Assembly: GCA_024278855.1 (NCBI GenBank)
Contig: JAJRSJ010000066.1
Span: 1-49,505 of the forward strand
Source of the DNA: Alphaproteobacteria bacterium
Lineage (GTDB): Bacteria; Pseudomonadota; Alphaproteobacteria; Caulobacterales; Maricaulaceae
DNA length: 49,505 nucleotides
Reading direction: 5' to 3'
Position 1 is the first letter of the stretch; every line of letters begins with the position of its first letter. Below the pieces are notes generated by a model that was given only the letters and a program-made list of their open reading frames with translations, made no database searches and was not told the origin of the DNA. A program made the position numbers and the translations under genes. Of this stretch, positions 7,523 to 8,563 are shown piece by piece.

Positions 7523-8563
7523 ATGTTATCGAGTATTTTCGGATTTTTATCGGCAGACATCGCCATTGATCTTGGAACCGCCAATACCCTGGTCTATGTC
7601 AAAGGACGTGACGTGGTTCTTGATGAACCGTCCGTGGTTGCCTATTCCGTGAAAAACGGCCGCAAAGAAGTTCACGCAGTTGGGGATGATGCCCGCATGA
7701 TGCTCGGCAGAACGCCCGGTCATATTTAAGCCATCCGCCCCATGAAAGACGGCGTTATTGCGGATTTTGAAGTGGCGGAAGTGATGATCAATCATTTCAT
7801 CAAGAAAGTCCACAATCGCCGCAATCTGGTGCACCCGCAAGTGGTGATCTGTGTACCTTCCGGTGCTACGGCCGTTGAACGTCGGGCTATCGAAGACAGT
7901 GCGGCGCGGGCCGGCGCGCGAAAAGTGCATTTAATCCCCGAACCTATGGCGGCTGCCTTGGGGGCGGGCCTGCCCATTCACGAGCCGACCGGCTCTATGG
8001 TCGTTGATATAGGCGGCGGTACGACCTAAGTAGCGGTTTTGTCCCTTGACGGTATTGTGTATGACCGCTCAGTTCGAGTTGGGGGCGATAAAATGGATGA
8101 TGCGATTATTCAATATGTGCGGAGAACTACGAATCTCTTGCTCGGCGAAATGAGTGCGGAACAGGTCAAAAAAGAAATAGGTTCGGCGCAAATGCCTGAA
8201 GATAATGAAGGCATGACCGTACAGATCAAGGGGCGGGATTTGATGAACGGTGTGCCCAGAGAAATTCGCGTCACCGAAGCTATGATTGCAGAAGCCCTGT
8301 CCGAACCTGTAGAGCAAATTGTCGAAGCGGTGAAACCCGCTCTGGAGGCGACCCCGCCAGAATTGGCGGCGGATATTGTCGACAAAGGCATCATGTTGAC
8401 GGGCGGCGGCGCATTGTTGCGAAATTTGGATACGGAATTACGAAACCGTACCGGCTTGCCAGTTTCATTGGCAGACGATCCGTTAACATGTGTTGTGCGT
8501 GGTTGCGGCATGGTGGTAGAGAATTTGGGCAAGTGGAAAAATATACTGTCCATGGGCAGCTAG
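7523..8563 (+). pseudogene. mreB: MreB rod-shape actin with two in-frame stop codons
   Basis: The full length of MreB (346 codons) reads in one frame from ATG 7523 to TAG 8563 except for two TAA codons, at 7727-7729 (codon 69) and 8027-8029 (codon 169). Around them the protein is excellent Mre[26 protein letters not shown] then stop then [39 protein letters not shown] then stop then [23 protein letters not shown], and [12 protein letters not shown]. The second stop replaces the strongly conserved Glu after the phosphate-binding DIGGGTT; the first replaces a position that is often Glu, Gln or Val. As written, only a 68-residue stub would be made. MreB forms filaments that guide lateral wall growth with MreC, MreD, PBP2 and RodA, all intact downstream. 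Confidence 0.92.

Follow-up and report, generated by a model that had tools for sequence, protein, structure and literature searches.

Stop codons lying inside otherwise conserved reading frames have been collected from bacteria by Belinky et al. (2021; PMC7918605), in a set filtered, according to the accessible portion of that paper, for stops common to two or more species in genes under purifying selection. In Blastocrithidia nonstop all three stops are reassigned, with UAR read as Glu (PMC12153298, excerpted text), and bacterial tRNAs with 4-bp anticodon stems are described in a study focused on tRNA-Trp and UGA (PMC13092985, excerpted text). The gene considered here, mreB, is essential in Caulobacter, where E169 is among the residues corresponding to those Hsc70 residues that affect ATP binding and hydrolysis (PMC3137890, in the portion available).

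The mreB frame described below is interrupted by two TAA codons and lies in a window of 49,505 nucleotides, which is a whole contig (C76) of an alphaproteobacterial genome (G000; 2.72 Mb, 79 contigs) rated 100% complete with 0.11% contamination. By MreB, its closest public relatives are Robiginitomaculum MAGs, and a literature search combining Robiginitomaculum with stop codons gave no paper. The genome of a sister species (G003) was used as the main control, together with a further sister genome (G007). Gene transfer agent tail genes (GTA_TIM, Rcc01698-like) are present elsewhere in the source genome, at L113 7017-11336 (C1).

The mreB frame and its neighbours

Translation of the locus bears out the original prediction of an unbroken MreB frame in which codons 69 and 169 are the sole internal stops, with no other visible damage and with the second TAA replacing the conserved Glu of its site; the first likewise falls on a Glu that is nearly invariant (Table 1). 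With X placed at both stops, the frame scores 483 bits against Pfam MreB_Mbl, covering positions 2-324 of the 327-position profile, and 498 bits against TIGR00904 (cut-off 366); as an uninterrupted reading frame the gene fails at these two codons. Stops were absent from the aligned MreB of all 80 relatives, with which the protein agrees at all 185 other invariant columns, zero missense being seen there. Moreover, 97% protein identity to G003 (86% for the DNA), together with the clean invariant columns, gives no sign in the remaining frame of the relaxed selection typical of a pseudogene. The possible visibly damaging single-base changes in mreB comprise 96 nonsense changes, 21 of them to TGA, and 1172 missense changes at invariant columns. 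Under random change the probability that both of two changes are nonsense is about 0.006, a value with no correction for the choice of the window, which was made on account of these very stops.

Table 1. Features of the window (positions in window coordinates) and genes of the source genome with an accepted interior stop.
Feature	Position	Strand	Lesion	Basis or residue at the site
mreB frame, 346 codons, terminal TAG	7523-8563	+	TAA twice	translation, HMM
in-frame TAA, mreB codon 69	7727-7729	+	TAA	Glu in 79/80 relatives, Leu in one
in-frame TAA, mreB codon 169, directly after DIGGGTT	8027-8029	+	TAA	Glu in 80/80 relatives
mreC, open	8714-9637	+		HMM
mreD, open	9634-10173	+		position, open G003 orthologue; no HMM match
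mrdA (PBP2), open	10180-12027	+		HMM
rodA, open	12027-13163	+		HMM
cckA-like hybrid histidine kinase	15524-17980	+	TAG at 17411-17413 (codon 630)	inside HATPase match; Gln codon in both G003 and G007
ybgC	29351-29796		apparent frameshift	T run reads one T short
EamA transporter gene	42333-43308		apparent frameshift	T run reads one T short
etfA			TAG	Gln in G003
gene on C13, presumably formate-dehydrogenase-beta-like			TAG and TAA
TonB receptor			TAA
relaxase			TAG	between two domains
glyS			TAG
hemN			TAG	between two domains; gap in G003
UPF0262 gene			TAA	Ser in G003
polysaccharide flippase			TGA

In the alignment, codon 169 falls on E169 of Caulobacter MreB, in a numbering of our own tied to the residues named in the available portion of PMC3137890. 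As the Hsc70 counterparts of these residues affect ATP binding and hydrolysis, a random amino acid there may not work. An assignment of the codon to the catalytic E140 was rejected, since the alignment points to E169. At the other site, the single exception among the relatives is the MreB of the Hellea MAG SZUA-39 (L027), in which TTA (Leu) stands in place of the codon-69 Glu and five residues differ at otherwise invariant columns.

A second mreB, for which a search had been proposed with the original prediction, was not found in the genome, the next profile matches scoring 59, 23 and 18 bits. The 59-bit match exceeds the Pfam cut-off of 27 but sits within a 645-aa frame, and is probably an Hsp70-type relative. 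The downstream partners are intact, as had been claimed, with mreC, mrdA and rodA open by HMM and mreD open and placed by position. The damage is, however, wider than the mreB lesions that had been considered alone, as the window also holds the cckA TAG and the apparent frameshifts of ybgC and the EamA gene. Both frameshifts were judged from the window's own sequence; the two ybgC fragments weakly match consecutive parts of the 4HBT profile. Near the contig end, 49379-49389 on the minus strand and its surroundings resemble the T-loop and 3' end of a tRNA, with no tRNA called, and may be an integration-site remnant.

Interior stops and stop usage across the genome

Interior stops were sought over 768,192 bases of the source genome, the window included, of which 10,054 are N; five contigs are N throughout. 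The search required coding sequence on both sides of a stop, judged by coding potential and by comparison with G003, and part of the candidates were tested by Pfam. Twelve interior stops were accepted (5 TAA, 6 TAG and 1 TGA), in mreB and nine other genes. Coding potential yielded 48 candidates, 21 of which were tested as read-through frames against HMMs or relatives; 11 were accepted, four gave no usable answer (C19 3720, C40 16208, C6_40001 18223 and C16 2109), and the 27 outside this group were judged by eye to be neighbouring genes. The twelfth stop, in the UPF0262 gene, came from the homology comparison with G003, which covered 154,143 bases of the source genome and listed 34 stops, five being accepted as interior (three of them in the picked window) and the remainder appearing by eye as 5' extensions or shadow frames. 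Candidates in DUF6384 and Hsp33 were rejected as gene ends. The twice-broken gene on C13 was rejected as nuoF, being a longer paralogue below the nuoF cut-off, and a better nuoF match lies intact on C71.

Scanned alike over 1,029,270 bases, G003 gave one accepted interior stop, which is a TGA and interrupts a gene with an integrase domain; its coding-potential candidates numbered 63, of which 7 were Pfam-tested (two more came from the homology comparison) and 56 judged by eye. The reverse homology comparison listed 14 stops in G003 and none was accepted, hence outside the picked window this test stands at 2 interior stops in the source genome versus 0 in G003. The stops in mreB, cckA, etfA, UPF0262 and glyS were absent from the sister genomes wherever these were comparable, and opposite the interior stops the relatives carry a mixture of residues (Glu, Gln, Ser and Arg). 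Taking about 4-5% of random coding changes to be nonsense, about 12 nonsense changes per 768 kb correspond to an estimate of roughly one random substitution per 3 kb.

The in-frame TAG of glyS (L190 8279-10462, C30) is at codon 420, a site occupied in 10 aligned relatives by Glu (8), Ser (1) or Arg (1). This is the only glyS match in the genome, and no dimeric GlyRS scored above cut-off as a replacement. At columns invariant in the close set, the gene carries 10 residues of its own, against 3 in G003 (aligned over codons 8-508 only, with a fourth that is N) and 2 in G007; more distant relatives have between 3 and 33. Four of the changes are T>G in codons 400-416, just ahead of the stop. Codons 357-420 as a whole hold a cluster of radical residues at columns invariant in close relatives.

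Missense singletons in the window number 265, against 313 in G003 and 342 in G007 (4592 codons, 12 genes), a weak test since only a few extra singletons are expected at the genome-wide rate, one substitution per 3 kb being too few to show as a missense excess. Window changes show only a small T/G excess (T>G 17 versus 9 and 11; G>T 22 versus 15 and 16), and over 26,681 codons compared with G003, unpolarised, the two directions are symmetric at 91 each. G-to-T damage was rejected as a general cause because in G003 the residue opposite the cckA and etfA stops is Gln and that opposite the UPF0262 stop is Ser. Split alignments were about equally frequent (3 versus 2 in G003), and a coding-potential scan for frameshifts, with at least 136 places flagged in the source genome, was too noisy for use.

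Terminal stops are distributed as 291 TAA, 158 TAG and 142 TGA over 591 called frames, compared with 294, 158 and 129 over 581 in G003; neither TAA nor TAG has ceased to end genes. Genes ending in TAG have a further stop among the next 10 codons in 36.7% of cases (G003 38.0%), and those ending in TAA in 43.6% (G003 37.8%). Among 35 tRNA matches no UUA or CUA anticodon was found, in a set from which some expected tRNAs are missing and with the five contigs of N. A tandem tRNA-like pair on C6 (L199 5037-5184; also L246 and L247) has odd anticodon loops, that of the gene at 65037-65107 being non-standard, and a tRNA with a short anticodon stem or loop is present on this contig. The pair also occurs in G003, with the same loop, and in G007, and the anticodon of its second gene drifts (Arg in the source genome, Lys in G003 and ambiguous in G007). 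It was rejected as a suppressor, being common to two genomes in whose examined stretches such stops were not seen. A low-scoring adjacent pair, Gln and Asn, lies at L185 6089-6248 (C64), with other copies elsewhere.

Readings of the interrupted genes

The release factor RF1 was examined because the interior stops are nearly all of the UAA/UAG kind that it reads (11 of 12, 5 UAA and 6 UAG, with one UGA). Its gene (C20:7329-8402, L260) reads TETQGRGHTS, which aligns Gly with E. coli Ile196, two positions before Thr198 and beside the stop-reading His-Thr pair. In the remaining 13 members of the genus this residue is Val (7) or Ile (6). Among 385 alphaproteobacterial genomes, the Gly pattern was matched in two, this RF1 and a frame in G423 that is exonuclease-like, and the Ile/Val/Met pattern in 354; 30 matched neither, their sequences being left unread. 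The stop-reading loop is altered in a way that no other RF1 in this set showed by pattern. RF2 looks intact, with SPF, and R-x-H-T-S is read at this place in both factors. With the Thr198Ala change, RF1 has an about 400-fold higher KD at UAA, Thr198 being critical for UAA binding (PMC3974865, excerpted text); for changes at Ile196, literature search listings gave nothing on point.

The original prediction offered a wrong sequence or stops that are read through. This choice still frames the question correctly, but it viewed mreB alone and left out a third option, a real and recent loss; the same type of lesion in nine further genes, including the single-match glyS, shifts the weights of all these readings. 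With a probability of roughly 45%, we favour the reading that both mreB TAA codons are a defect of the assembled consensus and not part of the working mreB of living cells. Unsupported or minority read alleles, or a strain mosaic, would have entered the consensus, stops would arise sporadically at an error rate of one base every few kilobases, two of them in mreB, and living cells would carry an intact gene; raw reads would then be expected to disagree with the consensus. This is the likeliest reading because other indispensable genes are broken alike in the same assembly, the only mreB, the only glyS match and cckA all being interrupted, with no sign of adaptation in stop usage and terminal TAG as common as in G003. 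The burst of radical changes adjoining the glyS stop, the two apparent frameshifts, each readable as the loss of a single T from a run, the restriction of the stops to this assembly where relatives are comparable, the one TGA among the 12 and the position of both mreB stops at near-invariant Glu are also consistent with a defect. Exact overlaps of 141 bases in five pairs of contig ends (60 ends compared) speak against it, as they point to short-read de Bruijn graph assembly. Such assemblies seldom contain isolated wrong bases or shortened T runs except at very low depth, a condition against which the contig sizes of about 100 kb reached here argue. Nonsense unaccompanied by missense at the 185 invariant mreB columns, the lack of a missense-singleton excess in the window (weak as that test is) and the ordinary frequency of split alignments likewise tell against a consensus defect. 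An unlikely explanation is that the stops are real and mark a recent loss of mreB in the strain, with round cells possible and the partner genes still undecayed. Two stops in one gene would fit such a loss, as would the broken look of ybgC and the EamA gene, and in-frame stops are widespread in bacterial genes, where they tend to be short-lived polymorphisms (PMC7918605, accessible portion). However, the essentiality of mreB in Caulobacter, albeit another genus (PMC3137890, portion available), weighs against it, the loss would have to extend to glyS and cckA, and a second stop brings no gain after a gene is lost.

Real stops that are partly read through are possible but doubtful. Lacking the conserved Ile/Val beside His-Thr, RF1 would terminate leakily at UAA and UAG, near-cognate tRNAs would supply an amino acid at the stop, and the cell could tolerate nonsense alleles in genes that it needs. 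The Gly at position 196, the predominance of UAA and UAG, the otherwise pristine mreB and the two stops at variable sites, in glyS (Glu, Ser or Arg) and hemN (the gap in G003), would all suit leaky termination. The apparently intact RF2 also reads UAA, however, and RF1 must still release the 158 genes ending in TAG. The frequencies of tandem stops after TAG and TAA also tell against it, no UUA or CUA anticodon appeared among the tRNA matches of a set lacking some expected tRNAs, one TGA in 12 is not clearly below mutational expectation (21/96 in mreB), and with two stops in the same gene the loss would be squared. Moreover, cells relying on loose readthrough should avoid stops at near-invariant Glu such as those of mreB, and the RF1 Gly may itself be a sequence error. 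Reassignment of TAA, with or without TAG, by a suppressor tRNA carrying Glu, Gln or some other amino acid is highly improbable. The odd C6 tRNA-like gene would be its candidate, but that pair is shared with both sister genomes, 22 of the 50 listed window frames end in TAA, and the residues facing the stops are mixed. The apparently intact RF2, the terminal stop usage close to the sister's and the failure to find a suppressor among the tRNA matches together argue that the code is unchanged; by stop usage, reassignment is already close to refuted.

Comparison with described systems

With the set of Belinky et al. (2021; PMC7918605), the present stops share, as far as its accessible portion describes, a location in otherwise conserved bacterial frames, few surrounding changes and a probably recent origin. 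Unlike that set, they are private to one assembly and some fall in indispensable genes. The likeness to Blastocrithidia nonstop is that UAA both occupies Glu positions and still terminates genes (PMC12153298, excerpted text); here, in contrast, interior stops are rare, terminal usage has not shifted, the search gave no cognate tRNA and the relatives show various residues opposite the stops. The short anticodon stem or loop of the C6 tRNA recalls the 4-bp stems of PMC13092985 (excerpted text), but the C6 tRNA is not a tRNA-Trp and is common to sister species in whose examined stretches such stops were not seen. If the stops are errors, single-copy essential genes can be broken even in an assembly with such completeness and contamination values and a contig size of about 100 kb, which calls for caution in any biological interpretation made without reads.

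If the stops are real, a bacterial release-factor change would precede any tRNA change or shift in stop usage, and a proposed first step of codon reassignment would become testable. It is rather unlikely that this marine free-living alphaproteobacterium has a naturally weakened RF1 loop and leaky UAA/UAG termination, with nonsense alleles having spread into the indispensable mreB (twice), glyS and cckA and into other genes such as etfA, whose products would be made through readthrough; it would then represent an early stage toward stop-codon capture, before stop usage changes. A stop-specificity variant of a bacterial release factor, RF2 R213I, was reportedly described by Korkmaz and Sanyal in 2017, and we take R213 of RF2 to correspond to RF1 position 196, the one changed here. 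That variant is an engineered change in RF2, whereas the Gly found here is natural, lies in RF1 and has a putative effect.
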